This document shows, one piece after another, positions 16,264 through 37,927 of a DNA stretch of 37,927 nt. The notes below the pieces were generated by a model, which worked only from the letters and a program-made list of their open reading frames with translations, was not told the origin of the DNA and made no database searches. Numbering within the stretch: position 1 is the stretch's first letter; every line of letters starts with the position of its first letter. The stretch covers positions 1 through 37,927 of IMG/VR virus record IMGVR_UViG_3300036399_000827; one strand, given 5' to 3'. The translations under genes were made by a program, and so were the position numbers. Origin of the DNA: a virus.

Positions 16264-16264
16264 G

Positions 16265-19123: not shown

Positions 19124-19147
19124 AAAAAAAGCCGCCCGAAGGCGGCT
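19124..19147 (-). terminator. Strong intrinsic terminator before the scaffold gene
   Basis: Minus strand: stem AGCCGCC, tetraloop TTCG, stem GGCGGCT, then seven T in a row. The UUCG loop and perfect 7-bp stem make this the strongest terminator in the window. It separates terminase, portal and adhesin genes from the scaffold gene. Confidence 0.9.
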
Positions 19148-19172
19148 CTTGCCGTATGCGCGGGCGGCTAAG

Positions 19173-21418: not shown

Positions 21419-21426
21419 ATCGGTCC

Positions 21427-21966: not shown

Positions 21967-21968
21967 GC

Positions 21969-23407: not shown

Positions 23408-23409
23408 TT

Positions 23410-25512: not shown

Positions 25513-26778
25513 TTATGCCAGCCAGTGAATTTGATCAGCCGATTTACGCTTCGGCGCTTGCTCTTTTGCAGCTACCGCCATGTAGCGGAATGCGTCTGCA
25601 AAATGCGATGTCCAGTCGTGCAGCGGACCAAGCGACACTTGGCGCTTGTCGTCCACCTTCTCGCGGTACTGCTTGAGCGCTTCCAGCAGCGGCAACACGC
25701 GGCGCTTGTTAAACCAACAGCGCGGCAGCAACATCCGTGCAGCGTTGATGCCGTCCTGCACTGGTAGATTCGGCGTGACCTTGAAACGGATGCCGAGAGT
25801 TGCCGCCGTTTCAAGCCGCGAGCGCCCGGACCCTAGTTCGCGCACTTGAATGTCATGCGGCGCCCAATGATCGCCGTACGTGTACCCGCGCTCGTTCAGC
25901 ACCCGGACGTAGTGGTCTAGGCCCTGCCCGCTTGCGTCGTAGGCGTCAACGATGCGAACCGTGCCGCCGCGCACCGCCTGCCAAAAGACAATGGCCGTGC
26001 TATCAGCGACGCCCAAGTCCCATGACGTATGCACCGGCAGCACCGGATCAACCGGCACATCAGCAACGCGCTCATCCTTCTCAGCGGCAAGCAGTTCCTT
26101 GGCGTAGTAAGCGCCCTGAATCGCTGCCTCAAAGCTGCATTCAAACTCTTGCGCGTACTGGTCCGGCGTCATCTGCGTTGCAGCCGCTACCAGCTCGTCC
26201 GCGTCAACGATGCCAGTCTCGCTGGCTCGCAGCATTAGCCGGAACCAGTCCGCCTTGCCGTCGGCGTCCGCATAAACGCGGTAGAAGCCGTTGTGGCCTT
26301 TCGGCGTCCCAATGAACACCGCGCGGCCTTGCCTGTCAGCCAGCAGCGGGCGGATTACCTCGCCCCACAGCGACGGAGCGAAGTCGGCGTATTCGTCCAG
26401 CACCACATCATCTAGATAGATGCCGCGAAGGCGGACGTCCGCGTTGTCAGCACCGTAAAGACGAATGCGCGAGCCGTTGGCAAAGTCGGCGCGTAACTCA
26501 ACCTCGGAGAACTGCACGCCTGGAACAACGCCCGCGTACTTCTTGAGATAGCCCCAGGCTACGTCTTTGGCTTGCCCGTAGTACGGTGCAATGTATGCCC
26601 CGCGCCAATCGTCGCGCTCGGTTGTAAGCGCCCGCCGTAGCAAGTCATTGATGCACGCTACCGTCTTGCCGGCGCGCCTATGGCAGACCATGACCGCCCA
26701 CCGCGCATCCCGCGAGTGAAACGGCCGAAAAGCTTCACGGGGCGCGTAGGGAATTACGATCCGGGTTTCGCTTCCCAC
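25513..26778 (-). CDS. Terminase large subunit
   Basis: A 421-residue packaging motor and headful or site-specific nuclease. Walker A is CHRRAGKT (Lys38), Walker B VVLDEY (Asp128, Glu129), and the RNase-H-like nuclease shows Asp254 in SWDLGVADS and a C-terminal Asp in HDWTSHFADAFRYM. The start is GTG 26778, without a clear ribosome-binding site, overlapping the small-subunit gene by 25 bases. Length is normal for P22-like or related terminases. Confidence 0.95.
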   Translation of the reverse strand: MGSETRIVIPYAPREAFRPFHSRDARWAVMVCHRRAGKTVACINDLLRRALTTERDDWRGAYIAPYYGQAKDVAWGYLKKYAGVVPGVQFSEVELRADFANGSRIRLYGADNADVRLRGIYLDDVVLDEYADFAPSLWGEVIRPLLADRQGRAVFIGTPKGHNGFYRVYADADGKADWFRLMLRASETGIVDADELVAAATQMTPDQYAQEFECSFEAAIQGAYYAKELLAAEKDERVADVPVDPVLPVHTSWDLGVADSTAIVFWQAVRGGTVRIVDAYDASGQGLDHYVRVLNERGYTYGDHWAPHDIQVRELGSGRSRLETAATLGIRFKVTPNLPVQDGINAARMLLPRCWFNKRRVLPLLEALKQYREKVDDKRQVSLGPLHDWTSHFADAFRYMAVAAKEQAPKRKSADQIHWLA

Positions 26779-27041
26779 GTAAACACGTGCCGCAGCGGCG
26801 CATCATCGTCGCCAGCTACGGTAATAGCGTTCAGCCTTGGGTGAAGATAAGGCGCAGCGCTTTTAGCCGCGTCCATGCGAGTCTCGGTGTCGTTCACCTC
26901 GTCGCGCATAACGGCGAGCATGTATTCGAGCGGCGTCAGCCCTTCTTTGATCGCGCGTTCAGCAATCTCTCGGGTCTTTTGCGTGACGCTACCGGGCTTT
27001 CTGCCCGATCCTGGCCGTGCGCCGCCGTGTTGGTTTGCCAT
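26754..27041 (-). CDS. Probable terminase small subunit
   Basis: A 95-residue protein beginning MANQHGGARPGSGRKPGSVT, a Gly/Arg/Lys-rich start common in small DNA-binding packaging proteins, followed by helices (TREIAERAIKEGLTPLEYML) and DAAKSAAPYLHPRL, which closely resembles phage terminase small subunits. I preferred ATG 27041 over TTG 27053. It is the first gene after the late terminator and precedes the large subunit with overlap. Confidence 0.75.
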   Translation of the reverse strand: MANQHGGARPGSGRKPGSVTQKTREIAERAIKEGLTPLEYMLAVMRDEVNDTETRMDAAKSAAPYLHPRLNAITVAGDDDAPLRHVFTWEAKPGS

Positions 27042-27092
27042 GGTTAAGTTCAACCTTGCTGAGTTCCGTTGCCGGATTGTTCAGCGTAAGCA

Positions 27093-27120
27093 CAAAAGAA
27101 AACCGCCCACTAGGGGCGGT
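27093..27120 (-). terminator. Intrinsic terminator upstream of the late genes (tR'-like position)
   Basis: Minus strand: stem ACCGCCC, loop CTAGT, stem GGGCGGT, then TTTCTTTTG. It separates the early operon and tRNA-like sequence from terminase. In lambdoid phages a terminator here is overcome by Q antitermination, and a Q-like gene lies about 0.7 kb upstream. Confidence 0.85.
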
Positions 27121-27178
27121 CAACACGGTTACCCGTGACGAGGAGGGAGACAACAACGGAAAATTTGCGGGGCTAGCC

Positions 27179-27279
27179 AGGAGGGCGTCCGATTTGAACG
27201 GACGGCATCGGTGCGAAACCGACACGCAACCCAGAAACCTATTCCAGAGAGCCGCCTTAAACCACTCATCCAGCCCTAC
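27179..27279 (-). tRNA. tRNA-Ser-like sequence (possible anticodon GGA), degenerate
   Basis: Read on the minus strand, the D-arm region GAGTGGTTTAAGGC is that of class II tRNAs (Ser/Leu), and the T-arm is perfect: GTCCG, loop TTCAAAT, CGGAC. The acceptor arms GTAGGGC (27279-27273) and GCCCTCC (27186-27180) pair 6 of 7. The variable arm contains the hairpin TCGGT-TTCGC-ACCGA. The anticodon loop CTGGAAT would give GGA (Ser), but its stem has one mismatch and two wobbles, and the variable region is unusually long. No CCA is encoded. It may be a functional divergent tRNA or a decaying one. Confidence 0.6.
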
Positions 27280-27356
27280 CTAGCATCGCCAAACCTGCGG
27301 AGGCAATTCCCCCGTCAGAACGAAGCGTAACAAATGCTTTCGCCCCGGTGTGCGAT

Positions 27357-27379
27357 CTATAACCCGTGGGGGGTTATAG
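27357..27379. repeat. Perfect 9-bp inverted repeat overlapping the DUF551 stop codon
   Basis: CTATAACCC (27357-27365) and GGGTTATAG (27371-27379) are separated by five bases. No T-run follows on either strand, so it is not a standard terminator. It may be an operator or RNA structure at the early/late boundary. The rest of the 27042-27373 gap holds the tRNA-like sequence and the terminator. Confidence 0.6.
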
Positions 27380-27823
27380 GTGCGGCGGCTCCGGTAGCGG
27401 CATCCAGTGAGTAGCTGAATCAAGGCCCCAATGATTCTCATCCCCCATGTATCTCCAGCATAGCCCATGCCATTCCACAAGCTGCAGAACCGCGCACGTT
27501 CCGAATTTGTTTATTGTTATAACAGGCCGCCCGATTTCAGGCATCCGTTTGCTACACGCGATCCACTCCATCACATCACCCCCGACGCTGCTCTCGTACC
27601 AATGCCGTTCGAACTTTTCCGGTGCCGCCTCGTCAAACGCTTGCGCCATTTTGCACAACGCCCGGACCAACCCGTTGCGCTCCGCAACCAGACGCTGTGC
27701 GGCGCTTGCGGTGACAGTAGCCACTAACTCGTCGTCGACGGTCTCAATATCTACCTGTCCGTCCGCATGATTGCCAAAAACGAAGTACTTCGGGAACCGG
27801 TGTTCAACGTACTTGTCTTTCAT
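27374..27823 (-). CDS. DUF551-domain protein
   Basis: A 149-residue protein starting at ATG 27823 (TGATG overlap with the Q-like gene). The C-terminal 65 residues match DUF551: it opens MEWIACSKRMPEIGRPVITI and closes THWMPLPEPP, with a Trp-rich beta core between. DUF551 is common in phage and prophage early operons and its function is unknown. The N-terminal half has a helix (ASAAQRLVAERNGLVRALCK) typical of phage proteins to which DUF551 is fused. Confidence 0.8.
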   Translation of the reverse strand: MKDKYVEHRFPKYFVFGNHADGQVDIETVDDELVATVTASAAQRLVAERNGLVRALCKMAQAFDEAAPEKFERHWYESSVGGDVMEWIACSKRMPEIGRPVITINKFGTCAVLQLVEWHGLCWRYMGDENHWGLDSATHWMPLPEPPHL

Positions 27824-28176
27824 CACATAACCCCCCGTCTAGTCAGCCGAACCATCAGCATAGCCCGCGCACGCACGTAGACGACCTCCAGCGGCTCGCC
27901 GAGCGGCCTGCGCGTTCCCATCACCACGTTGTAGACGCTATCCCGCTCACGGCCCGGTAGATCGTCCACAACCGCCTGCACCGTGCGCGCCTCCTGGTCA
28001 TCGACATCCGCATACGCCTCGGACTGCGGTATGTCGTACACGCCACCTGCGCCTACCGCGACTGCACCACCCGGCTCAAACACCAGCGAGCGCGGCGGGA
28101 ACCCGATGTTAATATTTGGCCTGCGCTGCCAGTGCGCCCAATTGGCAAGAATGCCCGTCAGCCGCTGGTCTTCCAT
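27823..28176 (-). CDS. Candidate Q-like antiterminator
   Basis: A 117-residue protein with a strong ribosome-binding site (AAGGAGGGG) before ATG 28176. It begins MEDQRLTGILANWAHWQRRP, then GFPPRSLVF, and has a C-terminal helical part with DLPGRERDSVYNVV and RRPLGEPLEVVYVRARAML. An N-terminal L-x-N-W-x-x-W helix, a G-(Y/F)-P turn and a late helical DNA-binding part are what small phage Q antitermination proteins look like. Its position as one of the last early genes, ahead of a terminator and the late operon, fits. No zinc motif is visible. Confidence 0.5.
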   Translation of the reverse strand: MEDQRLTGILANWAHWQRRPNINIGFPPRSLVFEPGGAVAVGAGGVYDIPQSEAYADVDDQEARTVQAVVDDLPGRERDSVYNVVMGTRRPLGEPLEVVYVRARAMLMVRLTRRGVM

Positions 28177-28601
28177 CACCCCTCCTTCTTGCGTCGAATG
28201 GGTACCATCTGGAATGCGCAGCCGCGCCACGTTTTTGACGAAAAAAGACTGTGCATAACTTGGTCGTCGAAGACCACGTAATCGCCCTCTTGCATCTGCT
28301 GCGACATATTACCGACGTGCAGGACAATCGTGGACCTTGGAAGATCAACTAGCCAAAACATTGCCGAATATCTACGCGGCATCGGCCAGCCGCCCGCCCA
28401 TTCGTCATTATGCGGCTCAACGTAACGCAAACGGAGCGCGACGGCTGACGACTTGTCGACCATCCAACCGGCCCTTTCAGGAACATCACCTTTTCCAAAG
28501 AAATCCGGCGGCAGTCGGGTGGTAAACGTGTCGTCCGCGATACAGCGCACGATTCGCCGTTGATATGCCGTCGGCTTTTGGAAGCCGCGCTCAAATATCA
28601 T
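28176..28601 (-). CDS. 2-oxoglutarate/Fe(II)-oxygenase-like protein
   Basis: A 141-residue protein with a double-stranded beta-helix pattern. VEPHNDEWAGG contains an H-x-D pair (His64, Asp66) and GDYVVFDDQVMHSLFSS places His117 after a G-D-x-V-x-F-D strand, followed by Arg126. That is the order of the iron-binding triad and the 2OG-binding residue of this superfamily. Substrate is unknown; phage members may modify nucleic acid or protein. It is coupled to genes on both sides by ATGA and near-overlaps. The identification rests on motif order alone. Confidence 0.55.
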   Translation of the reverse strand: MIFERGFQKPTAYQRRIVRCIADDTFTTRLPPDFFGKGDVPERAGWMVDKSSAVALRLRYVEPHNDEWAGGWPMPRRYSAMFWLVDLPRSTIVLHVGNMSQQMQEGDYVVFDDQVMHSLFSSKTWRGCAFQMVPIRRKKEG

Positions 28602-28849
28602 TTGATCCTATCCTTCGGCCTGCGAGCGATCCATTCCCGGAGATCGTCCTCGACCATGTGCGGGTGCGCGTGTGCGTCATACACACCTATTACGTTGTGC
28701 GAGGTAGCCGGGTTTAGTTTTGACGCGAGCGACTTGCTAAACTTCTTGTTGTGCTTCGACCAGTATACAAACACCGCTTCATGCGATGCGGCCGCGTATG
28801 CTACGGTCTCTCGGGATACTTTTCGGATGTCGTCGTCGGTAACGGTCAT
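28598..28849 (-). CDS. Hypothetical early protein, 83 aa
   Basis: Coupled by ATGA overlaps to both neighbours. It starts MTVTDDDIRKVSRETVAYAA and contains the basic segment WSKHNKKFSKSLASKL, then VYDAHAHPHMVEDDLREWIA. No transmembrane helix or known motif. The basic stretch suggests nucleic-acid or partner binding, but that is speculation. Confidence 0.6.
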   Translation of the reverse strand: MTVTDDDIRKVSRETVAYAAASHEAVFVYWSKHNKKFSKSLASKLNPATSHNVIGVYDAHAHPHMVEDDLREWIARRPKDRIK

Positions 28850-29034
28850 GTCCCCGTCCCAACGTGAATTGCCCGCTCAATGCGCTCGCGCTCGGCCGGC
28901 GTCACGCCGATAATCTCGCGCATGTACTGCGCCCACAGACTGTCCAACAGCTCGTAATCGGGCTGGTCGCACGCCGAGCGGAATGCACATTGCTCGCGGA
29001 CGCGTCGAATAAAGCGCTCGACTGGATCGCTCAT
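28846..29034 (-). CDS. Hypothetical early protein, 62 aa
   Basis: A small helical protein (MSDPVERFIRRVREQCAFRS, then DYELLDSLWAQYMREIIGVT) coupled on both sides by 4-base overlaps. No motif recognised. Confidence 0.6.
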   Translation of the reverse strand: MSDPVERFIRRVREQCAFRSACDQPDYELLDSLWAQYMREIIGVTPAERERIERAIHVGTGT

Positions 29035-29420
29035 GTCAACTCCTCAACGGGAATGTCGGCTGCCTCTAGGTACTCAACGATCAGGTCGCGCGCCGCAATC
29101 CACCCGACGCACACCTCTGCGCGGTAACCGCGTTCCACATAGCCGGCGAGCCATTCGCGCTGCTCCGGGGTGACCGAGTAGCGGCCTGGGCGTTTTAACT
29201 CGATCCGCAGGCCGTGGTATCCGGCGCGGGGGACATCTAGAAGCACGTCCGGGACGCCACGGCGTACGCCCTCAGCTTTCAAGCGCGCGGCCGTTTTTGG
29301 GCTGCGTTTGCCACCGTTAGGCACCGCGTGCAGCCATTGCAACTCTGGGTGCTTCCGCCGCACGTTGTCCGCCCATTGGAACAGCGCGACCTGATGCGCG
29401 TGTTCGTCGCCTTGCGTCAT
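29031..29420 (-). CDS. VRR-NUC domain nuclease
   Basis: A 129-residue single-domain nuclease of the PD-(D/E)XK superfamily. Visible motifs: EHAHQVALFQWA (Glu6, Gln10), HAVPNGGKRS (residues 31-40), EGVRRGVPDVLLD with Asp58, and IELKRPG with Glu74 and Lys76. Phage VRR-NUC proteins are thought to be structure-specific or Holliday-junction-type nucleases used in replication, recombination or packaging. Here it follows the replication genes and could replace RusA. Complete catalytic set. Confidence 0.88.
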   Translation of the reverse strand: MTQGDEHAHQVALFQWADNVRRKHPELQWLHAVPNGGKRSPKTAARLKAEGVRRGVPDVLLDVPRAGYHGLRIELKRPGRYSVTPEQREWLAGYVERGYRAEVCVGWIAARDLIVEYLEAADIPVEELT

Positions 29421-29617
29421 TGCATGCCACCCAAGTGATGCGCCTCTAACAGTTCCTGAGCGCTCTTGAACGCCTCGCCGTTGAACACGCGGTAGCTGCT
29501 CGTCGTGTCGCCATGTATCAGGTGCACGTCACACGCAATCGCCCGTTTGCCCAGCGCGTCTGCGAGCGCTTGCTCGAGCATTGCGACCACCTGCGCTTGT
29601 GCTTCCGTCTGTGTCAT
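29417..29617 (-). CDS. Hypothetical early protein, 66 aa
   Basis: Coupled on both sides by 4-base overlaps. N-terminal helix MTQTEAQAQVVAMLEQALAD, then a short beta part (DVHLIHGDTTSSYRVFNG). Not recognised. Confidence 0.6.
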   Translation of the reverse strand: MTQTEAQAQVVAMLEQALADALGKRAIACDVHLIHGDTTSSYRVFNGEAFKSAQELLEAHHLGGMQ

Positions 29618-29862
29618 GCCGCCCCCACTAGTTGCTTAAACCGCCCAAACAGCGCGCCGTACTCATCCGCCGTCAGCCGACCCTGCGCCTGCTGCAGCCG
29701 CTTCCATTGCGCTTGCGTGCGCGACACGGGCCGTCCGCGTGTAGAGCGCCCCGTGCGCCCCGGCGTGTCGGCGATGTGCCGTGCCAGACAGCACAGACGC
29801 GACAGGACGTAAATCGGCCATAGTTCGGTTGCGGCGCGGTTGCAGTCGTCGCAGAGCGTCAT
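29614..29862 (-). CDS. Small Cys-containing protein, possible zinc binding
   Basis: An 82-residue protein starting MTLCDDCNRAATELWPIYVL, with CxxC at residues 4-7 and CC at about 24-25, so four cysteines could bind zinc. The C-terminal 35 residues are a helix rich in Gln and Arg (RTQAQWKRLQQAQGRLTADE). The start overlaps the stop of the next zinc-type gene (TGATG). Function unknown; likely DNA or RNA binding. Confidence 0.6.
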   Translation of the reverse strand: MTLCDDCNRAATELWPIYVLSRLCCLARHIADTPGRTGRSTRGRPVSRTQAQWKRLQQAQGRLTADEYGALFGRFKQLVGAA

Positions 29863-29999
29863 CAGTCCGCCCCCGCCTCGCGCTCGTGACGCTCGCAGAC
29901 AAACACTGCCGGCTCATCCACCAGCCGACACCACCGCACCGCCACGTACAGCGGCGGGTATGCGCGCGACTCGCAGTGCGTGCATGTGGCGCAGGTCAT
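29862..29999 (-). CDS. 45-aa zinc-ribbon-like protein
   Basis: Starts at ATG 29999, in an ATGA overlap with the helicase-loader gene. The sequence MTCATCTHCESRAYPPLYVA carries Cys at 3, 6 and 9, with further Cys at 24 and 35 and a His at 38, so at least one zinc site is likely. Tiny phage zinc proteins of this kind are common downstream of replication genes. A much longer in-frame reading exists upstream but runs antisense-like through the loader gene and is rejected. Confidence 0.6.
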   Translation of the reverse strand: MTCATCTHCESRAYPPLYVAVRWCRLVDEPAVFVCERHEREAGAD

Positions 30000-30508
30000 G
30001 CCGGCACCTCGCGGCCCGTCTCTAACAGCGCCGCGCAGGCCATCTTGTAGCTCGCATGCGCCAGAACCTTGTCGCCGCCTCGGTATCGCTCGATGACGCG
30101 ATACGCCCACGACAACGGGTCGCGGGGCTGCTCGCGCCCTACCGTCGCCACAAGCCGCTCGACCTTCGCGCGGGCCGCAGCGAGCTCGCCATCGGTGCGC
30201 GGGGCCGGCAGGGCTAGCGGCTGGTGCATGGCCACGACCGGCGCGGGCTTGCGCTTGCACAGCGCGACAAACTCGGGAAGGCTCGGCGGGAACGTCACGC
30301 CGGATTCCTCAAGCGCGCGGATACCTGCCAGGATCTGCTCGACCGAGTAGCGCCCCAGCGAGTCGCACCAGACCCCCTTCACCGCGTCGGGCTGCTGCTG
30401 ACCCCACATGCGCTTCATCGCCGCGTCGCCGTACATCGCGGCGAATCTGGCAAACAGCCGATCAACCGCGCGGAGTGACAAGCCTGGGGACATCGTTTCG
30501 GTCTGCAT
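29996..30508 (-). CDS. Lambda P-like replicative helicase loader
   Basis: A 170-residue protein resembling phage lambda replication protein P: VDRLFARFAAMYGDAAMKRM, a central helix, YSVEQILAGIRALEESGVTF and then PPSLPEFVALC, the family's P-S-x-x-E-F-x-x-x-C signature. P proteins take the host DnaB helicase to the origin marked by O. It follows the O-like gene and overlaps its end by 47 bases (or 32 if the ATG at 30493 is used). No ribosome-binding site is clear, so coupling is likely. Confidence 0.8.
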   Translation of the reverse strand: MQTETMSPGLSLRAVDRLFARFAAMYGDAAMKRMWGQQQPDAVKGVWCDSLGRYSVEQILAGIRALEESGVTFPPSLPEFVALCKRKPAPVVAMHQPLALPAPRTDGELAAARAKVERLVATVGREQPRDPLSWAYRVIERYRGGDKVLAHASYKMACAALLETGREVPA

Positions 30509-31352
30509 CGATCGTGCTCAGTTGCGTTGGGAGTCGGCCTGCAAGGCCACCCGTCAGGGCGTGCATGAAAGCGCCGTCGCGTTCATCGCGCTCATCGGCA
30601 GCGGAGCGGTAGGGCGATGCTCGGGCCTGCTTAGGAGAGCGCTCATTGCGGACAAAGTTCCTCCACGTCGCGGGCCAGTCGACCTTGCGGCCCTTCGCCC
30701 CCGGCACGCCGAGCCAGTAGTCGCGGAACTTCTCGACGACGGCCGTAGGGCTCAGGTCATCCCGCTCGGTCCTGCACCACGCAACGGCGTCGGCATCCGG
30801 GAATCCGTCAGGGATCCGGCAGCCACGGACAGAGGGCGCGACGTCAGTCGCGGGTGTCTCTATCTTTTCTTCTTGCTCCGAGAGTCCGAGAGTCCGAGAG
30901 TCCGAGAGTCCGCCGGGCTCGCCAACGCCTAGGTTCGCCCTAGGCTCGCCTTGGGTTTGCCTAGGGCTAGCCTTGGGCTCGCCTTCAGCCGCTTGCATGG
31001 GGGGCGTAGGCGCTGCCTGGGCCATGCCTTCGGGTGCCGGGATGACGCTTGCGGCCTCGCGCGGGTGGGGCTTCTGATGCTTGTGGAAAGCCGGGATGGC
31101 AAGGTAAGCCACGCCATGCACGGTGTAGCGCAAGACCAATCCGGCCTTCTGAAGACGCTGCAAGCAGGCGTCAACGTCAACCGAGTCGCACGGAAAAACA
31201 GCCATTCGAATTCGCTTCGGGCGATCTTCAAGGCGTCCCTCTCGGTCTGCCAGTGTCCACAGCCCGGCAAACAACAGGCGGTCCTCAAACGGCAGCTCGA
31301 CAAGTTCCTCGTTCGTGAAGAACCCGGGCGCGATGTTTCTGACGCGGGCCAT
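30462..31352 (-). CDS. Lambda O-like replication initiation protein
   Basis: A 296-residue protein. ATG 31352 has GGAG upstream and starts the conserved MARVRNIAPGFFTNEELVEL, followed by LLFAGLWTLADREGRLEDRP, a winged-helix-like head found in many phage replication proteins. A Pro/Gly/Lys/Glu-rich linker lies at about 110-160, and the C-terminal part has VEKFRDYWLGVPGAKGRKVD, then WPATWRNFVRNE, like DnaT/phage replication C-domains. The linker DNA contains the iteron-like array and the 8-bp tandem repeat, so the origin probably lies inside this gene as in lambda. Confidence 0.8.
   Translation of the reverse strand: MARVRNIAPGFFTNEELVELPFEDRLLFAGLWTLADREGRLEDRPKRIRMAVFPCDSVDVDACLQRLQKAGLVLRYTVHGVAYLAIPAFHKHQKPHPREAASVIPAPEGMAQAAPTPPMQAAEGEPKASPRQTQGEPRANLGVGEPGGLSDSRTLGLSEQEEKIETPATDVAPSVRGCRIPDGFPDADAVAWCRTERDDLSPTAVVEKFRDYWLGVPGAKGRKVDWPATWRNFVRNERSPKQARASPYRSAADERDERDGAFMHALTGGLAGRLPTQLSTIDADRNDVPRLVTPRG
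30880..30911. repeat. Four perfect 8-bp tandem repeats GAGAGTCC
   Basis: Four head-to-tail copies in the linker of the O-like gene. Eight is not a multiple of three, so slippage would shift the reading frame. A pyrimidine/AT-rich stretch (TATCTTTTCTTCTTGC, 30861-30876) adjoins it. Confidence 0.9.
30913..30983. repeat. Iteron-like array of 11-bp repeats, candidate replication origin
   Basis: Five contiguous 11-bp units (30929-30983): CTAGGTTCGCC, CTAGGCTCGCC, TTGGGTTTGCC, TAGGGCTAGCC, TTGGGCTCGCC. A sixth related unit, CCGGGCTCGCC, lies at 30913-30923 after a 5-bp gap. The period of 11 does not match codons and the encoded peptide is not periodic, so selection acts on the DNA. The site sits in the middle of the O-like gene next to an AT-rich stretch, the layout of the lambda origin. 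Confidence 0.7.
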
Positions 31353-31374
31353 CAGTTCCGCTCCCGAAGCTCGT

Positions 31375-31755
31375 TCACGCCGTTCCGCCGCAAACCCGCC
31401 CGCGCAGGTACTCCAAGCGCTTGCCAGCCCGGCGGCGGAACTCCTGCCACTCAATGCCCTGCTCGGCGGCCATAGCTCGCCACCGCAACAGCCGGGCGGC
31501 CCTCTCGTCGCGCGACTCGATGTGTGCCTGCCGCATCAGCGCGACGGGCATAGACAATGCGGCCGACTCCGCTTGCCAGTCGATCGTCGGCAGTTCTCGG
31601 CTCTTGCGCGGTAGCACGGGCTCGGGCTCAAGCTCGATGTCATCGGGCTCAAGCTCCTCGGAGCCTTTGACGTCAGCCAGCGGACGGTAGACGCGGCCAT
31701 GCTCGAAGCGGCGATGCGCTTCGAGTGCGGCGGATTGGTCGAACAAACTGATCAC
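31375..31755 (-). CDS. Hypothetical early protein, 126 aa
   Basis: Starts in an ATGA overlap with the CII-like gene. It begins MISLFDQSAALEAHRRFEHG, has an acidic middle (GSEELEPDDIELEPEPVL) and a basic helical end (WRAMAAEQGIEWQEFRRRAG). The acidic-then-basic layout suggests a partner-binding protein, perhaps for replication, given that it lies before the O-like gene. Family not recognised. Confidence 0.65.
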   Translation of the reverse strand: MISLFDQSAALEAHRRFEHGRVYRPLADVKGSEELEPDDIELEPEPVLPRKSRELPTIDWQAESAALSMPVALMRQAHIESRDERAARLLRWRAMAAEQGIEWQEFRRRAGKRLEYLRGRVCGGTA

Positions 31756-32219
31756 CGTCCCCTCCCGACAAGCAATTCACGAAGAAGCCTGTTCTCGTCA
31801 GCCAGCTGCAAGTTCCGCTCTTGCCCCTCGCGCACCTGTCGTTCCAACTCGGTTTCTAGGGGTCGTAGTTCGTACCCGCGCGAGTGCGCCAGCCATTCGA
31901 GCGGCGCCTCATTGCCCGCCATGTCCATCAGCGGGCCGAGCAAATGCAGCGGGAAATGCGCGCCACCGGACACCATGCGCGACCAGTGCGCGGGGTCAAT
32001 GCCGAGGCTGATGCACGCTTCCTTGTCGGCGATGCCGGCGGCCTGTAGGCAGAGCTGGATCGCCGACAACATAGACGGCTGGCGATGCACAAGCGCCGGA
32101 TCAACGTCGATCGGGTCGCCGGGCGTCACAAGCGGAATCTGCCGACTCGCAACCGCCGTCGAGCTTCTAGACGACGGTTGACGGTCTGGAATCGGCGTGA
32201 TGCGTGAGACTGTAGACAT
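31752..32219 (-). CDS. CII-like helix-turn-helix regulator
   Basis: A 155-residue protein. After a disordered N-terminus of about 45 residues, the stretch MLSAIQLCLQAAGIADKEAC, then ISLGIDPAHWSRMVSGGAHF reads as a helix-turn-helix. PLMDMAGNEAPLEWLAHSRG follows, a pattern known in phage early regulators in the CII position, and a leucine-rich coiled coil (ERQVREGQERNLQLADENRL) ends the protein, suited to oligomerisation. It is the first large gene after cro in the early operon. GAGG lies eight bases before ATG 32219. Confidence 0.7.
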   Translation of the reverse strand: MSTVSRITPIPDRQPSSRSSTAVASRQIPLVTPGDPIDVDPALVHRQPSMLSAIQLCLQAAGIADKEACISLGIDPAHWSRMVSGGAHFPLHLLGPLMDMAGNEAPLEWLAHSRGYELRPLETELERQVREGQERNLQLADENRLLRELLVGRGR

Positions 32220-32317
32220 GCAACAGACCTCAGTTCAGCGCTTTAGGTACGGGTGGGTGCCCGCGACCGTGGCAAAGTGGAAGCTCGACCAACCACGCCA
32301 CCACAGAAGGGGCACCC

Positions 32318-32587
32318 ATGAACGATTCCGAGCGCGAGAGCGCATTGACCAGCCTGATGGGCCAAGCGGTAGCGCTACAGGTATGCATCAAGCACCTGCT
32401 TGCGGAGCACTTCCGCCAGCAGCCGAATCCGGCCGACTCGTCGGATCAATTTTTCGATGCCCAGAGCAAGGGGGCTGGAGATGCGGACTTTCAGGAACGC
32501 CGGTCGACAGCAAATGCGGTTTACGAAGCAACTCATCTGACGTTGGCAATAATTCGCCAGCAAGTACACGAGCAGCTCCGGCGCTAA
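32318..32587 (+). CDS. Hypothetical helical protein, 89 aa
   Basis: A plus-strand gene with GAAGGGG upstream of ATG 32318. The composition looks like a real helical protein (MNDSERESALTSLMGQAVAL, then CIKHLLAEHFRQQ and ATHLTLAIIRQQVHEQLRR). It lies antisense to the end of the gene at 32388-32690. A promoter may lie in 32220-32317, where I see only a TAGGTAC half-site-like word. It could be expressed in the lysogen together with the repressor. Confidence 0.5.
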   Translation: MNDSERESALTSLMGQAVALQVCIKHLLAEHFRQQPNPADSSDQFFDAQSKGAGDADFQERRSTANAVYEATHLTLAIIRQQVHEQLRR

Positions 32588-32690
32588 TCCGGGCTTGGAT
32601 CTCGAAGGAAAGCGCGAGCCAGTCAATGTGCTCGCGCTCTTGTCGGCGCTTTGTCGCGTACGGCGACATGGGGCGGGCTCGGCGCTTCAT
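32388..32690 (-). CDS. Hypothetical protein coupled to cro
   Basis: A 100-residue ORF whose ATG at 32690 overlaps the cro stop (ATGA), strong evidence for translation. Residues 1-40 (MKRRARPMSPYATKRRQERE, then HIDWLALSFEIQARISAG) look like a genuine basic DNA-binding-like protein; the last 60 residues, antisense to the gene at 32318-32587, look unstructured. The original gene may have been shorter and lost its stop. Confidence 0.5.
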   Translation of the reverse strand: MKRRARPMSPYATKRRQEREHIDWLALSFEIQARISAGAARVLAGELLPTSDELLRKPHLLSTGVPESPHLQPPCSGHRKIDPTSRPDSAAGGSAPQAGA

Positions 32691-32890
32691 GCCGCAGCCT
32701 TGGCGGGCTTGACGTCGAACACGTCCGGTTCGGCCTTGAGCGCGCCGCCCGTGATCTGCTCTAGCTGCAATTGCCTGAGTGGCGGGGGGTACTTCCGCCA
32801 CTCGTAGACGGATGGAACGGATATGTCTAAAGCCTTTGCCAGCGCGGATTTAGAGCCGCCAAAGTGCGCGAGTGCGTCTGAAGTAAGCAT
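32687..32890 (-). CDS. cro: Cro-type repressor (P22 Cro family)
   Basis: A 67-residue protein from ATG 32890. MLTSDALAHFGGSKSALAKA, then LDISVPSVYEWRKYPPPLRQ and LQLEQITGGALKAEP match the P22 Cro layout: helix-turn-helix with S-x-x-x-W recognition end, then L-x-x-x-T-x-G-x-L-K. It heads the minus-strand early operon, divergent from the CI-like gene, 61 bp away. No strong ribosome-binding site is visible. Confidence 0.8.
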   Translation of the reverse strand: MLTSDALAHFGGSKSALAKALDISVPSVYEWRKYPPPLRQLQLEQITGGALKAEPDVFDVKPAKAAA

Positions 32891-32901
32891 GGCCGCATTG
32901 T

Positions 32902-32937
32902 TAGGTCTGCCGAAGCTTCTGTCAATAGGCACACCTA
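32902..32937. promoter_or_regulatory. Operator-like inverted repeat between cro and the repressor
   Basis: TAGGTCTGCC (32902-32911) and GGCACACCTA (32928-32937) are inverted copies with 9 of 10 positions matching, in the 61-bp gap between divergent cro and CI-like genes. This is the expected place of PR/PRM and their operators. A related word, TAGGTACCCC, occurs at 33366-33375, upstream of the next promoter. Confidence 0.6.
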
Positions 32938-32951
32938 CGCTCAGGCTTGGC

Positions 32952-33347
32952 ATGCTCTGCGGCGTGGATACAGGCAAGCGCATTCGGGCGTTGCGTGTCG
33001 CGCGGGGTCTCAAGCAAAAGGACCTAGCGCGAGCCATAGGCATTGCCGCGCCGTCCCTGTCTGAGCTTGAGACCGGCAAGTCAAAAGAGCCGTCTGGATC
33101 AGTGCTTGCAGCCTTGTGCCGAGTGCTGCACACCAATGGCGAGTGGCTGTTGACTGGCAAAGGCGAAGCCGGGGCGTACTTTACGCTCGACGGCGACCAA
33201 GCCGAGATGCAAGCCATCTGGGACCAGCTACCGCCCCAGGGCCAGTCCGCATTGCTGGCTACCGCTCGCGGCCTGCGTGACGCCTACGTCACCGCTCCAA
33301 GCACCGCGAATCCGTACCCGAAACGCCGCACTCCTACGCAACTCTAA
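32952..33347 (+). CDS. Short CI-like repressor
   Basis: A 131-residue protein with an N-terminal HTH_3 domain (about residues 8-60: TGKRIRALRVARGLKQKDLA, RAIGIAAPSLSELETGKS), then HTNGEWLLTGKG, which follows the HTH in many phage repressors. There is no S24 LexA-like peptidase domain, so induction cannot use RecA-dependent self-cleavage. ATG 32952 gives a nearly leaderless start, as lambda cI from PRM; longer readings extend through the operator and are unlikely. Confidence 0.8.
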   Translation: MLCGVDTGKRIRALRVARGLKQKDLARAIGIAAPSLSELETGKSKEPSGSVLAALCRVLHTNGEWLLTGKGEAGAYFTLDGDQAEMQAIWDQLPPQGQSALLATARGLRDAYVTAPSTANPYPKRRTPTQL

Positions 33348-33365
33348 CTTTTTTTCGCGCGGAGT

Positions 33366-33405
33366 TAGGTACCCCTATTGACAGACACTTCGGTATCCCT
33401 AATAC
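33366..33405 (+). promoter_or_regulatory. Candidate early promoter of the plus-strand operon
   Basis: TTGACA (33378-33383) and TAATAC (33400-33405) are 16 bp apart, about 40 bp before the gene at 33444. The direct repeat GGTACCCCTA (33368-33377) and GGTATCCCTA (33392-33401) flanks the -35 and touches the -10, so this is a likely PL-type promoter under repressor control. Confidence 0.65.
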
Positions 33406-33443
33406 TTTCTCCGTGCCGCACAGACAGCGGCCAGGAGAGCGAG

Positions 33444-33794
33444 ATGGGCCACCGGGATCACAACGTAGAGCAGGCAGCAGCGGCCGAAGACCGCGCCGCT
33501 GACATCACAACGGCGCAGTCGGCATGGCGCGCACGCCGCGAGCTTGAGCTTGTCGCGCTGCTTGAGACTCGCCCGCTGTTCGCCTGCATGCCGGGCAACT
33601 ACTCGACAGAAGGCACGCCGCCCGTCGCCGTAGAGCTTGTTTCGTGGGTGCTTACGACTAGCGCAGACCCGGACCGCACGCTGGCCGAAGCGATCTACTC
33701 GCCGACCGCGCGCTACCGGCTGCACCGGCTCTTTGCGGCTGACGCTGCCGAGCGCGAGTGCGACATGCGGCCCGAAGCGGCATGGGAGGCGTGA
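33444..33794 (+). CDS. Hypothetical protein, 116 aa, first gene of the plus operon
   Basis: ATG 33444 has GGAG about eight bases upstream and lies after a promoter. It begins MGHRDHNVEQAAAAEDRAAD and contains LFACMPGNYSTEGTPPVAVE, then helical LLETRP- and YRLHRLFAADAAEREC-type segments. No catalytic motif recognised. Its stop overlaps the next small gene (ATGA). First genes of such operons often block host defences or control functions, but nothing here proves that. Confidence 0.65.
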   Translation: MGHRDHNVEQAAAAEDRAADITTAQSAWRARRELELVALLETRPLFACMPGNYSTEGTPPVAVELVSWVLTTSADPDRTLAEAIYSPTARYRLHRLFAADAAERECDMRPEAAWEA

Positions 33795-33874
33795 TGCGAG
33801 CCGCCGCCTACGTCCTAGCGTCAGCAATCGCAACGGCGCTCATTTACAAACTCATCGCCGGACGGGTGTTCTGA
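33794..33874 (+). CDS. 26-aa membrane peptide
   Basis: An ORF coupled on both sides by ATGA overlaps encodes MRAAAYVLASAIATALIYKL then IAGRVF: one hydrophobic helix with positive ends. The double coupling in a dense operon makes translation likely even though it is tiny. Probably inserts in the inner membrane. Confidence 0.6.
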   Translation: MRAAAYVLASAIATALIYKLIAGRVF

Positions 33875-34101
33875 TGCGCGACGCCGCTGATGCACAAATG
33901 CGCCATGAGTCGTTCATGGCAGATGTCGCGGCCGAGCGCGACGAGCACCGCGCCAACATGACCGAGATTGCAATCCTGCGCGACCGCGTGGCACTGCTGC
34001 GCCGCGCTGTAGCCGACGCAAAATCGCAGGGATGGGGAAGCATGCCGATTGCGTCGCTTGAGGTGTACTTAGGCGTTGCGGGCGAGCGAGGCGAAGCATG
34101 A
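33874..34101 (+). CDS. Hypothetical coiled-coil protein, 75 aa
   Basis: ATG 33874 overlaps the stop of the membrane peptide. It has a heptad-like stretch (MADVAAERDEHRANMTEIAI, LRDRVALLRRAVADAK) and ends with SMPIASLEVYLGVAGERGEA. It may pair with the membrane peptide, as their genes are coupled. Ends overlapping the alanine-repeat gene. Confidence 0.6.
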   Translation: MRDAADAQMRHESFMADVAAERDEHRANMTEIAILRDRVALLRRAVADAKSQGWGSMPIASLEVYLGVAGERGEA

Positions 34102-34703
34102 AGACAACTCTCAACGCAATCCGCGAGCACAGCCCGTGCGCCAATGGATGGGCCAAGCTCTTGCGTCATTTGGGCAAAACCATGGCCGACGACGAGCCGC
34201 TGTCCATCGTCACGGTTTTGGATAGCAATGGGCTAAACGACGCGCTGTGGTGTACGCGCGCCGTTACCGGGCACGACAGAGAGATCCGGTTGTATGCGGT
34301 CTGGTGCGCGCGGCAGGTGCAGCATCTGATGACCGACCCGCGCTCGATTGCCGCGCTTGACGTGGCCGAGCGGTTTGCAAATGGCGAGGCGACGCGCGGC
34401 GATCTAGACGCTGCGAGGGCCGCTGCGAGGGCCGCTGCGTGGGCCGCTGCGGGTGCCGCTGCGTGGGCCGCTGCGAGGGACGCTGCGTGGGCCGCTGCGT
34501 GGGCCGCTGCGAGGGACGCTGCGTGGGCCGCTGCGAGGGACGCTGCGGGTGCCGATGCGATGGACGCTGCGAGGGCCGCTGCGTGGGACGCTGCGGTGGC
34601 CGTTGCGTGGGCCGCTGCGGGGGACGCTGCGTGGGACGCTGCGAGGGACGATCAAGCGACTCGTCTGCGTGAGGTTTGCGCCGCGTGCGAGGTGACGGCA
34701 TGA
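34098..34703 (+). CDS. Alanine-rich tetrapeptide-repeat protein
   Basis: A 201-residue protein. Residues 1-104 form a normal globular head (MKTTLNAIREHSPCANGWAK, SIVTVLDSNGLNDALWCTRA, REIRLYAVWCARQVQHLM). Residues about 105-184 are exactly 20 tetrapeptides of the form A-A-x-A/D, where x is mostly Trp, Arg or Gly. A short tail with two Cys follows. Heads of this type fused to (AAWA)n/(AARD)n tails recur in phages, and the function is unknown. The repeat would be a long helix with one face of Trp/Arg. Coupled to neighbours by ATGA. Confidence 0.75.
   Translation: MKTTLNAIREHSPCANGWAKLLRHLGKTMADDEPLSIVTVLDSNGLNDALWCTRAVTGHDREIRLYAVWCARQVQHLMTDPRSIAALDVAERFANGEATRGDLDAARAAARAAAWAAAGAAAWAAARDAAWAAAWAAARDAAWAAARDAAGADAMDAARAAAWDAAVAVAWAAAGDAAWDAARDDQATRLREVCAACEVTA
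34410..34649 (+). repeat. 20 tandem 12-bp repeats GCTGCGNGGGNC
   Basis: Exactly 240 bp made of twenty imperfect units encoding the A-A-x-A/D tetrapeptides of the gene at 34098. Unit length is a multiple of three, so slippage changes only protein length. It creates long false ORFs on other frames. Confidence 0.9.
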
Positions 34704-34939
34704 ACGGCCAGTCAATGCGTCACCGGCGCCTGCTGTCAGGCGTGCGCCGCACCGGGATACAGCTCGATTCGCAGGTAGCGCGCGGTATCTCGCCCCGGCA
34801 CGCCGAGGGCTGGCGAGATCAGCAGGACAGCGATGGCGATGGAATTCGGATGCTGCGCAACGCGGTTTGCGGCGGCATTGCGGTGTGGGTGCTTTTCGCG
34901 TTGCTGCTGCTGTGGGCCGTTGAGTTGATGGCGGCGTGA
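34700..34939 (+). CDS. Small membrane protein, 79 aa
   Basis: ATG 34700 overlaps the previous stop (ATGA). A basic N-terminal part (MNGQSMRHRRLLSGVRRTGI) is followed by a C-terminal transmembrane helix (about residues 54-75, CGGIAVWVLFALLLLWAVEL). A tail-anchored inner-membrane protein; it could be a Kil-like or superinfection-related product by position before the recombination genes, but no family is recognised. Confidence 0.6.
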   Translation: MNGQSMRHRRLLSGVRRTGIQLDSQVARGISPRHAEGWRDQQDSDGDGIRMLRNAVCGGIAVWVLFALLLLWAVELMAA

Positions 34940-34959
34940 ACACACATAACGAGGATGAG

Positions 34960-35766
34960 ATGAGCAACGTAACCGAATTCCGACACGCATCAAGCGCCGT
35001 CGCGCTGCATGACGACGAACTGATGGCCGTGCTTCGTAACAGCCTGTACCCAGGCGCAAAAGACGAGTCGATCAAGTTAGTCCTTGGCTACTGCAAAGCG
35101 GCCGGACTCGACCCGCTGCAAAAGCCCGTGCATATCGTTCCGATGTGGGACAAGAACACCCGCGACATGCGCGACGTCGTGATGCCCGGCATTGAGTTGT
35201 ACCGCGTCAAGGCCGCGCGCACGGGCCAATACGCAGGATGCAGCGAGCCGGAATTTGGGCCGGATGTCGTGCAGGTTCTTGGCGGCGCGGAAGTCACTTT
35301 CCCGGCTTGGTGCCGTATTACCGTGCGGCGCATTGTCGGCGGAAGCATCGCGGAGTTCACTGCGGTCGAGCGTTGGACCGAGAACTACGCAACGGCCAAG
35401 CGAGACAGTGCGCAGCCGAATGCGATGTGGGCAAAGCGCCCGTATGGGCAGCTCGCAAAGTGCGCCGAGGCGCAGGCGTTGCGCAAGGGGTTCCCGGAGA
35501 TCGGCAGCGGGCCGACTGCTGACGAGATGGCGGGCAAGTCGATCGACGTTGACTCACTGCCTACCGCGCACGCAGCCGAGCCGGATGACGCGCTGCTAAC
35601 CACCGCACGCACCGCTGCGATGAGCGGCACCGAGGCATTCCGCGCGTACTGGAAGTCGCTGCCCGCGCCGCACCGCGAGCAACTGAAAGGCGTGCTGCCG
35701 TCGCTCAAGGATGCCGCTGACAAGGCGGACGCGCAAACGGTTGACATGCAAGGGGGCGCGGAGTGA
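34960..35766 (+). CDS. bet: Single-strand annealing recombinase (Bet, RecT-like)
   Basis: A 268-residue protein. ATG 34960 has GAGG upstream; a GTG at 34936 is the alternative. It starts MSNVTEFRHASSAVALHDDE, with LRNSLYPGAKDESIKLVLGY, then CKAAGLDPLQKPVHIVPM, which is typical of lambda Bet. Bet anneals single strands made by the partner exonuclease, encoded directly downstream with a 4-base overlap. The C-terminal 60 residues are the variable helical part. Confidence 0.92.
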   Translation: MSNVTEFRHASSAVALHDDELMAVLRNSLYPGAKDESIKLVLGYCKAAGLDPLQKPVHIVPMWDKNTRDMRDVVMPGIELYRVKAARTGQYAGCSEPEFGPDVVQVLGGAEVTFPAWCRITVRRIVGGSIAEFTAVERWTENYATAKRDSAQPNAMWAKRPYGQLAKCAEAQALRKGFPEIGSGPTADEMAGKSIDVDSLPTAHAAEPDDALLTTARTAAMSGTEAFRAYWKSLPAPHREQLKGVLPSLKDAADKADAQTVDMQGGAE

Positions 35767-36389
35767 CTGCCGCAATTCGCGCAGATTCTTCCGGGTGGCT
35801 GTCCGCCAGGGTTGGTCTTGTCACTGCCTCGCGCATGAACGACGTTCTTGACGTTCGCAAAGACGGAAAGCCGGGCGCGGGCCGAAAACGATACATGGCC
35901 GAACTTGTCGCTGAACGGATGACGGGGCAAGCGTGCGATCACGTTGTCACTCAGCCAATGCAGCGCGGACGAGATCAACAGCCAAATGCTTGTGCCGCTT
36001 ATGAAGCGGCTACTGGCAACATCGTTGGCCCCGAAATTTTTGTCACGCACCCGTCAATCGAGTGGGCGGGCGCAACTCCCGACGGCACCATTGACCAAGA
36101 TGGCTTAGTCGAATTTAAAGTGCCGCTTGCGCACAACTTTGTTGACTGGTCGCTTGATGGAAGCGTGCCGGATCAGCACATCGCGCAATTGCAATGGCAA
36201 CTTGCGTGCACCCAAAGAAAGTGGGTGGATTTCTGCGCCTACTGTCCGGAGATCAACGGCCCCGCCGGGCTAATGATCGTCCGTTATCAACCGACAGACG
36301 ATGAGATTGTGGCCTTGGAAGAAAAGGTCCGCGAGTTCTTGTCGCAAGTTGAGCTTGCGTTTACCACGCTGACGCAGAGGGCGGCGTGA
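35763..36389 (+). CDS. exo: Lambda-Exo-like (YqaJ) 5'-3' exonuclease
   Basis: A 208-residue YqaJ-type exonuclease that would resect double-strand ends for Bet. Visible motifs: RVGLVTASRMNDVL, QRGRDQQPNACAAYE, WAGATPDGTIDQDG with Asp107, LVEFKVP with Glu117 and Lys119, and HIAQLQWQLACT. The position after the G-x-x-x pattern, usually Glu in this family (RGxxxEP), is Gln73 here. Start is GTG or ATG overlapping the bet stop (GTGA). Length is close to lambda Exo (226). Confidence 0.9.
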   Translation: MTAAIRADSSGWLSARVGLVTASRMNDVLDVRKDGKPGAGRKRYMAELVAERMTGQACDHVVTQPMQRGRDQQPNACAAYEAATGNIVGPEIFVTHPSIEWAGATPDGTIDQDGLVEFKVPLAHNFVDWSLDGSVPDQHIAQLQWQLACTQRKWVDFCAYCPEINGPAGLMIVRYQPTDDEIVALEEKVREFLSQVELAFTTLTQRAA

Positions 36390-37000
36390 TGAACAAACAA
36401 GAACGGCGGTTGTTGATGCACGTCTATCACCAGATGATTCGTCGCTGCCACAACCCTAAAACCCCATCGTTTGAAAATTACGGGGCGCGAGGAATCTACG
36501 TGTGCGCTTCTTGGCGCGATTCGTTTGAAGCGTTCTTGCGAGACATGGGCCCGCGCCCGCATCGGCACGTTGTTGATCGGATTGACAACGACAAAGGCTA
36601 TTCGCAAGACAACTGCCGCTGGGCGTCACGCAAGCTCAGTAACGAAAACCGACGGAACGTCATTTGGGTTGACTGGCAAGGGCAGCGAGTTTGTTTGAAA
36701 GACGCCGCACGGCTTGCGGACGTGTCTTATCGAATGGTCAAGAAACGAGTGGCGAAAGGGATGGATCCAATTGTTGCGTTGAAGGAGCCTAGCAAACGGC
36801 CTTTGCATAGTGATGTCATTGCCAGGGCAAAAGCCAGAGAGGCCCGAGCTTTTGTGCGGCGCACGTACTTTGTTTGCGGGCACGAAAAGTTGCCACAGAA
36901 CTCCAAGCTGACTTACCGGGGTTTCCGTGCTTGCCTGCATTGCGCCAACGGAGCGGGCAACTACCTGAGCCAAGCAAACACTGAGCGGGAGGCGGCGTGA
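36389..37000 (+). CDS. HNH-type homing endonuclease
   Basis: A 203-residue protein starting at ATG 36389 (TGATG overlap). The N-terminal part has RRCHNPKTPSFENYGARGIY, then VCASWRDSFEAFLRDMGPRP and VVDRIDNDKGYSQDNCRWAS, the standard series of phage HNH/AP2-associated endonucleases. The C-terminal FVCGHEKLPQNSKL, then ACLHC could hold a zinc site. The middle (LKDAARLADVSYRMVKKRVA) is a DNA-binding module. It sits in the recombination operon without breaking a gene, as free-standing homing genes do. Confidence 0.82.
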   Translation: MNKQERRLLMHVYHQMIRRCHNPKTPSFENYGARGIYVCASWRDSFEAFLRDMGPRPHRHVVDRIDNDKGYSQDNCRWASRKLSNENRRNVIWVDWQGQRVCLKDAARLADVSYRMVKKRVAKGMDPIVALKEPSKRPLHSDVIARAKAREARAFVRRTYFVCGHEKLPQNSKLTYRGFRACLHCANGAGNYLSQANTEREAA

Positions 37001-37203
37001 AACTTGCCCCGCAGCAATATGCCGTTGCCATGCTGTTGCGCGACGGCCTGTCGGACAAAGTCATCGCCGCAAAGCTTGGCGCATCGCCGTACACCGTCAA
37101 AAATCATCTTGCGAACGCATACGCACGGACAGGGGCAAAAAACCGCGTGCAACTCGCGCTAATGGCTGAACGCGGCCAGTTAACAAAAACGGCGGCGCAA
37201 TGA
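36997..37203 (+). CDS. Stand-alone LuxR-type helix-turn-helix protein
   Basis: A 68-residue protein from GTG 36997, with GGGAGG upstream and a GTGA overlap. It is almost only one GerE/LuxR HTH domain: LAPQQYAVAMLLRDGLSDKV, then IAAKLGASPYTVKNHLANAY and ARTGAKNRVQLAL. No sensor or receiver domain is present. It ends in an ATGA overlap with the HTH-KOW gene. It would bind DNA directly, perhaps with its neighbour. Confidence 0.8.
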   Translation: MKLAPQQYAVAMLLRDGLSDKVIAAKLGASPYTVKNHLANAYARTGAKNRVQLALMAERGQLTKTAAQ

Positions 37204-37583
37204 CCATCACGCCACGACAGGCCGAGTATGCCCGCGCGTGGGTTGCAGGCGTACCGCAGAAAGAAATCGCGCGTCGTTTTGGTGTTGGCATGCCTACCGT
37301 GTCCGCAATGCTTAGTCGAATCCGCCAGCGGTACACGGACGACCGGCGCGAGATGGCCGTAATCCTGGGCGATGCGCGCGTGCGGCACTGCAATGGCGGC
37401 GGGCGTGCGTCACGTTGGGGTTACGTGCGAGGCGACGCCCTACGCATCATCGGCGGTCGTTATGCGGGGCGTAATGCGACGTATGTCGGAGCGTCAAATA
37501 CGGATCAAGTGCGCGTGCAGATTGGCGGCGGCGTGTTTGCAATTAGGGCTAGATTTTGTCAACCGATGGAGAAAGCGGCATGA
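37200..37583 (+). CDS. HTH-KOW fusion protein
   Basis: A 127-residue protein. Residues 3-45 are a LuxR-like HTH (PRQAEYARAWVAGVPQKEIA, RRFGVGMPTVSAMLSRIRQR). After a basic Gly/Arg linker, residues about 78-120 read GDALRIIGGRYAGRNATYVG, then DQVRVQIGGGVFAIRA, the strand pattern of a KOW domain (as in NusG or ribosomal L24/L26), with the key Gly residues in place. It thus joins a DNA-binding part to a domain usually found in transcription-elongation or ribosomal proteins. Coupled with the LuxR-type gene upstream and the DUF6948-like gene downstream. Confidence 0.65.
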   Translation: MTITPRQAEYARAWVAGVPQKEIARRFGVGMPTVSAMLSRIRQRYTDDRREMAVILGDARVRHCNGGGRASRWGYVRGDALRIIGGRYAGRNATYVGASNTDQVRVQIGGGVFAIRARFCQPMEKAA

Positions 37584-37876
37584 ACACCAAACTAACTATC
37601 AACGGCATTGACTACATTACCGCAACGTCTAAGCCGACCGGCACTCGTGCCGTTGTCGTTGTGGATCGCGGCTGGATTTTTGCGGGTGATGTGACCCGCG
37701 AGGACGGCCGTATTCGCATCGGCCGCGCGCTCCACGTTTTCCGCTGGGAAAACATAGGTTTTGCAAAAATGGTCGAGACAGGGGAGGCGGATCTGCGCCC
37801 AATCTCCGATGTCGACATGCCCGAGGGCGCTGAGATTTTCTGCGTTCCGGTAGCTGATGATTGGGGCATGAAATGA
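37580..37876 (+). CDS. DUF6948-like phage protein
   Basis: A 98-residue beta-rich protein from ATG 37580 (ATGA overlap). MNTKLTINGIDYITATSKPT is followed by RAVVVVDRGWIFAGDVTRED, then the HVFRWENIGFAKM segment and [15 protein letters not shown]. This V-V-V-D-R-G-W-I-F-A-G-D core matches the phage DUF6948 family as I recall it. Function unknown. Its 3' part is duplicated at the contig start. Confidence 0.72.
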   Translation: MNTKLTINGIDYITATSKPTGTRAVVVVDRGWIFAGDVTREDGRIRIGRALHVFRWENIGFAKMVETGEADLRPISDVDMPEGAEIFCVPVADDWGMK

Positions 37877-37911
37877 CTGAGCAAATGCGGCCAGTCGGGG
37901 ACGGGTACGGG
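37786..37911. repeat. Right copy of the terminal redundancy
   Basis: Identical to bases 1-126; see the left copy. The last 16 bases of the contig (37912-37927) continue in a different order of hexamer units than the left copy. Confidence 0.9.
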
Positions 37912-37927
37912 TACGGGTACGGGGACG
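37873..37927 (+). CDS. 5' fragment of the Gly-Tyr repeat protein gene
   Basis: The same gene as at 88-333, cut by the end of the contig after about ten residues of repeat. Its repeat order (TAC-TAC-GAC) differs from the left copy (AAC-TAC-AAC-GAC), indicating another allele or a graph path in the assembly. Confidence 0.8.
   Translation, partial: MTEQMRPVGDGYGYGYGD

Follow-up and report, generated by a model that had tools for sequence, protein, structure and literature searches.

Gene organization of the recombination operon

The DNA analysed here, referred to as the window, comprises the 37,927 bases of a virus record in IMG/VR. The last 142 bases of the window repeat the first 142 with two mismatches and the matches of a relative span the junction, and therefore the map closes into a circle. 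The source is a temperate bacterial virus with a lambda-like plan, and the features that define this plan and the operon of interest are listed below.

1872-2921: integrase
25513-26778: terminase large subunit
minus strand: replication genes, with a Holliday-junction-resolvase-like match
31755-32219: weak CII-like match (E=0.0018)
32690-33217, minus strand: Cro-like gene
32823..33347, plus strand: CI-like repressor gene of a lambda-like switch
33378..33406, plus strand: candidate pL-like promoter of the operon (TTGACA-17-AATACT, 10/12; consensus match only)
34936..35766, plus strand: RecT-like annealing protein (PF03837, E=6.7e-25)
35763..36389, plus strand: YqaJ/RecE-like exonuclease (PF09588, E=2.8e-20)
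36386..37000, plus strand: HNH endonuclease-like gene (phrog_3377, E=3.6e-43; 4-bp overlap)
36997..37203, plus strand: stand-alone LuxR-type HTH gene (class A), 68 aa (GerE, E=8.9e-12, 44.9 bits)
37200..37583, plus strand: HTH-KOW gene (class B), 127 aa (open reading frame with an ATG start; GerE, E=2.1e-4; KOW from several weak lines in agreement)
37203..37370, plus strand: LuxR/GerE-type HTH of the HTH-KOW protein, residues 2-57 (Pfam GerE; VIA fold match)
37413..37565, plus strand: KOW/SH3-like domain of the HTH-KOW protein, residues about 72-122, strongly basic (profile, predicted fold and charge)
37580..37876, plus strand: downstream gene D1, 98 aa (open reading frame; 4-bp overlap with the HTH-KOW gene)

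Six plus-strand genes, recT-yqaJ-HNH-HTH-HTH/KOW-D1, overlap by 4 bp at each junction, and the HTH-KOW gene is the fifth of them, sharing the sequence ATGA with the stand-alone HTH gene (36997-37203 and 37200-37583). The candidate promoter is 3.8 kb upstream of the HTH-KOW gene, and the pL-like region repeats the divergent pR-like promoter region at 32901-32937 in inverted orientation over 37 nt (78%). Among the repeats in 26900-33900, this promoter-region inverted repeat was the sole regulatory candidate, and no operator for the HTH was found there. Set against the gene order of lambda, including its N and Q positions, the HTH-KOW gene is in the lambda-like left (pL-type) recombination operon and not at the N or Q position. 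The best terminase match was Rhodoferax phage P26218 (52%), and the RecT relatives in genomes came from four betaproteobacterial records, among them Limnohabitans; therefore, the host is likely in Burkholderiales.

The last gene of the operon, D1, is a widespread uncharacterised protein of uncultured phages, with 296 relatives among IMG/VR contigs and no match in 50,697 GenBank phage records, nor in Pfam, PHROGs or NCBIfam. Just 3' of D1, inside the terminal repeat at the contig end, is a hexamer repeat (CGGGTA/CGGGAA, 111-302 and 37896-37927), and similar long repeats are also found 3' of D1 in three other loci (L040, L062 and L089). Repeat proteins were seen as well: the window has an alanine-rich one at 34098-34703 (AAWDAARDAA type, 12-nt repeat), L089 has a similar one, and in L040 a pentapeptide-repeat-like protein is encoded upstream of the HTH-KOW gene. 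On the minus strand, the non-coding stretch at 27140-27290, upstream of the terminase genes, contains a T arm like that of a tRNA and, after it, a good terminator hairpin. ARAGORN found no tRNA near 27200 and no Rfam match exceeded the gathering score, and this tRNA-like stretch was set aside.

Domains of the HTH-KOW protein

The HTH and the KOW together take up the 127 residues of the window protein. The GerE score of its HTH (21.3 bits) is below the Pfam cut-off of 23.5 bits (PF00196), the exception among five scanned proteins, four of which exceed the cut-off. The relatives scored E=3.9e-12 and 46.1 bits (first gene of locus L003), E=2.3e-7 and 30.8 bits (second gene of L003), and E=1.9e-9 and 37.4 bits (L062). 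In VIA, the predicted fold of the window HTH matched the ComA DNA-binding domain (3ulq_B) with Z 10.0 and 1.8 A over 57 residues, and TraR (1l3l_C) with Z 9.7. Because of the scores of the relatives and the fold, we counted the window HTH-KOW protein in the LuxR/GerE HTH family. The Pfam and NCBIfam scans gave no match to the NGN domain, and neither these scans nor that of PHROGs matched the Q or AlpA families.

For the C-terminus, the single-sequence scores are all non-significant. Pfam KOW (PF00467) gave E=0.084 for the window fragment, and E=0.027 (fragment) and 0.095 (whole protein) for the second gene of L003, all below the cut-off, and it did not match the fragments of the first gene of L003 and of L062; the best score was 14.7 bits against a cut-off of 22.3, a threshold that no scanned sequence reached. 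The L062 sequence departs strongly from the KOW core motif. The NCBIfam UpxY antiterminator model matched the KOW region of the first gene of L003 with E=0.0051, covering the KOW part only. When a three-row KOW profile was compared with the PDB, ribosomal protein L24 came top (E=0.011) and eL27 fifth, with IMP dehydrogenase, HIV-protease and polymerase-subunit entries between them, and a four-row profile, A8, placed covalent dimers of HIV-1 protease top and L24 fourth. We took the HIV-1 protease matches of A8 and the IMP dehydrogenase matches of the three-row profile as spurious. When the four-row profile was aligned with 44 E. coli proteins by hhalign, RfaH ranked first and L24 second, with the alignment at the KOW motif, and NusG was not among the eight matches listed.

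AlphaFold2 predicted, with middling confidence, a run of strands in the C-terminal part of the full window protein (pLDDT 70.4, pTM 0.43, from 6 sequences) and five strands for the KOW alone (pLDDT 71.9, pTM 0.58). Foldseek matched the KOW-only model to ribosomal, RfaH, Spt5 and NusG chains, none with E below 0.001. In VIA, the C-terminal domain (CTD) of V. cholerae RfaH was the best match of this model (1.9 A over 48 residues), with a Z of 6.5 that, like any below 8, may reflect a common arrangement; NusG, Spt5 and ribosomal KOW proteins followed, and 21 of the 50 rows had titles naming RfaH, NusG, Spt5 or DSIF. The predicted fold of the C-terminus, chosen beforehand as one of the points on which the original prediction of an HTH-KOW fusion could be refuted, thus came out KOW-like and did not refute it.

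These results also bear on the alternative that the C-terminus is not a true KOW and that the likeness is a chance glycine-rich strand-turn-strand. The Pfam values, the HIV-1 protease dimers that outrank L24 and the VIA Z below 8 would be compatible with such a coincidence. However, independent methods agree on KOW proteins and align them at the KOW motif, and more than two-fifths of the VIA rows name factors of the RfaH, NusG, Spt5 or DSIF kind, and we regard a chance likeness as very unlikely. Sequence, profile and predicted fold converge on RfaH, NusG, Spt5 and ribosomal L24, each test being weak alone. We assign the C-terminus as a KOW because several tests agree, no single one being decisive, and consider this assignment well supported, though short of proof.

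Relatives, paralogues and rarity of the fusion

Relatives were collected through RecT (37 viral loci) and through D1 (the best 80 of 296 loci, 69 of them with at least 2.5 kb upstream of D1). By the family profile, HTH-KOW genes were confined to the loci of the window, G001, its duplicate G003 and G002, joined later by L062; the HTH family was present in three of the 69 D1 loci, namely L060 (which is G002), L062 and L089. We refer to five distinct records, the window, G001, G002, L062 and L089, leaving out G003 (L002), whose 5295 bp match G001 with 100% identity, and L039, which has an HTH only in another setting. G001 (L003) carries tandem HTH-KOW genes (11759-12142 and 12139-12531), and G002 carries two copies (L040, 4827-5201, and L042, 1-373; 97.6% DNA identity) that have different gene surroundings at opposite ends of a single phage contig; the contig break falls within one of the copies. 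L062 has a single HTH-KOW gene and L089 a single HTH-only gene.

The HTHs fall into two classes. Class A comprises the stand-alone gene of the window, the first gene of L003, L062 and L089 (44-57% identity), and class B comprises the window HTH-KOW gene, the second gene of L003 and L040 (37-97%); identity between the classes is 22-35%. Both classes have genes with a KOW, and two of the four class A genes are without it. The stand-alone HTH, which had been correctly recognised as a LuxR-type neighbour, is 52% identical to the HTH of the first gene of L003 vs 28% to that of the second, and by these identities it is the orthologue of the first gene minus its KOW. We read it as a KOW-less form because G001 has two tandem HTH-KOW genes. 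The suggestion that the two genes form a pair held in part: an adjacent pair occurs in two of the five distinct records (the window and G001), but the partner in the window is a KOW-less paralogue, and L062 and L089 have single genes.

The two copies in G002 differ by nine silent and no amino-acid changes, a pattern with a neutral chance of about 1e-5; therefore, the protein is under purifying selection. In G001, the KOWs of the paralogues are 69% identical and the HTHs 29% identical, with dN of 0.20 for the KOW vs 0.97 for the HTH. This pattern would fit a common effector on different DNA readers, or an exchange of the KOW between the genes.

Outside these records, the fusion was hard to find. 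Tblastn searches of 50,697 GenBank phage records yielded no fusion relative; one such search returned 55 records, with none of the 30 listed covering 80% of the query and none of the three examined carrying a KOW, and three further matches with E of 2 to 7 were set aside as chance. No fusion relative was found in 72,556 plasmid records, where none of the 41 matches covered 80% of the query and the 10 listed extend over the HTH and at most the linker. Searching viral contigs with the window protein alone also gave none, in scans that use exact peptide patterns and miss distant relatives such as L062, which was found only through D1. In genome contigs, profile A2 gave 85 stretches, none confirmed, and in four betaproteobacterial genomes it matched in the HTH part only, never past profile position 79. 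The KOW profile A8 matched 1 of 399, 0 of 399 and 1 of 398 in three genome draws, which may overlap, and recovered all four KOW-bearing records and not the HTH-only record in a positive control. Both genome matches were judged to be chance, one being in a His/Ala-rich frame and the other a 30-residue match in a 188-aa frame. An HTH-KOW or LuxR-KOW fusion was not found in print among open-licence PMC papers. The fusion itself, borne out by the open reading frame, the GerE match, the agreeing KOW lines and the predicted fold, looks new, and the combination of a LuxR-type HTH and a positively charged KOW in one protein looks rare.

Charge of the KOW and possible roles of the protein

The net charge of the KOW is +6, +6, +6, +6 and +7 in five family sequences, a value that is only a proxy, as the DNA is GC-rich and this favours arginine. 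For comparison, 58-aa segments taken from 37 other proteins of the window (1642 in all) have a mean net charge of -0.39 (sd 3.33), and 4.1% of them reach +6. The window HTH-KOW protein has a pI of 11.3, and none of the 37 other proteins reaches 10.8. The corresponding E. coli domains are at -3.0 (NusG) and -1.9 (RfaH). According to PMC7593976, the NusG loop I164-F165-G166 contacts Rho and the NGN domain is the polymerase-binding part of NusG proteins. When the five KOWs were aligned with E. coli NusG, the loop position read I-G-G or I-G-A in the window and L003/L040 and was absent in L062; the Rho-contact loop is thus not kept in the family, and RfaH is also without it. Because the KOW is strongly basic and without this loop, nucleic-acid binding looks likelier for it than contact with Rho or S10.

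In bacteria, most known KOW domains belong to NusG-like factors or ribosomal proteins. The likeness of the phage protein to RfaH, NusG and UpxY is the KOW domain, and it differs from them in having an HTH instead of the NGN, a basic KOW and no NusG Rho-contact loop. L24 and eL27 are RNA-binding KOW proteins whose KOW motif aligns with the phage KOW, and the L24 KOW is likewise basic and binds nucleic acid; unlike the phage protein, L24 and eL27 are ribosomal and have no HTH. GerE and PedR are HTH-only proteins of about 70 aa, without the added C-terminal domain of the HTH-KOW genes, and the class A genes in the window and in L089 resemble them. In the family scans above, the HTH-KOW protein shows no match to the phage Q antiterminators and AlpA, which also have a different gene position.

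The computations show both domains and that they are conserved, the paralogy of the genes, the operon in which they lie and the basic charge; from these we infer that the protein binds DNA, that its KOW binds nucleic acid and that its role is regulatory, and it is probably a regulator of genes. We give about an even chance to the reading that it is a phage DNA-binding transcription regulator with a nucleic-acid-binding KOW clamp, which we favour in view of the basic KOW, the missing Rho-contact loop and the lack of an NGN. The regulator would be made early or delayed-early from the lambda-like left operon, and its LuxR/GerE-type HTH would recognise a specific DNA site of the phage (or the host). 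Its basic KOW might add contacts to flanking DNA or nascent RNA, strengthening or positioning the protein, and might possibly contact the transcription machinery. The HTH-only neighbour is a paralogue that lost, or never gained, the KOW tail, and may compete with the HTH-KOW protein for sites or share them. A KOW that serves as a dimer contact or binds a host protein would fit the same data.

The original prediction went further and proposed a processive antiterminator that DNA recruits. As such a DNA-addressed elongation factor, the protein would be loaded by its HTH at a site near a promoter, and its KOW would act on elongating polymerase, the ribosome (S10) or Rho, giving read-through of downstream terminators in the manner of RfaH or Q. 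RfaH is the closest KOW among the 44 E. coli proteins and its CTD the best structural match, and the UpxY match is to an antiterminator. DNA recruitment is already known for antiterminators: a DNA element recruits RfaH, which opposes termination (PMC7593976), and the Q antiterminators and AlpA are DNA-addressed factors acting on RNA polymerase (PMC6606751, PMC9371919). However, the phage protein lacks an NGN domain and the NusG Rho-contact loop, its KOW charge is opposite to that of NusG and RfaH, and its gene is away from the N or Q position. The argument that the phage has terminators to overcome also proved weak: the hairpins at 27121-27101 and 18203-18184 (minus strand) are intergenic and look good, but terminator-like sites on both strands are just modestly above shuffles (24 in 1-19000 vs 17.8, sd 3.9; 25 in 18900-37927 vs 18.5, sd 4.0). 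We consider this elongation factor rather unlikely.

Equally doubtful, in our judgement, is that the protein is an ordinary repressor or activator of the phage whose SH3-like domain has no task other than dimerisation or solubility, on the model of DtxR and KorB, which are HTH plus SH3-like regulators. SH3-like barrels commonly partner HTHs, GerE-type HTHs are usually dimeric on binding, and the HTH-only versions in the window and L089 imply that the tail is dispensable in some genes. For a pure dimer contact, however, neither so positive a charge nor the conservation of arginines and glycines in the KOW motif would be expected, and KOW proteins account for many of the structural matches listed. 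A broader idea, to which we assign a low probability, is a class of phage processivity factors in which a LuxR-type HTH, replacing the NGN, would bring the KOW to the transcription machinery at selected sites on the DNA. Paralogues that differ in their HTHs would then direct one and the same KOW effector to different sites, with HTH-only paralogues as natural antagonists.

A phage protein in which a KOW is joined to a sequence-specific DNA reader would represent a new means of bringing a KOW to a gene. The HTH-KOW protein could give a compact tool for studying a KOW acting alone, and the HTH-only and HTH-KOW paralogues, side by side, are a built-in comparison.
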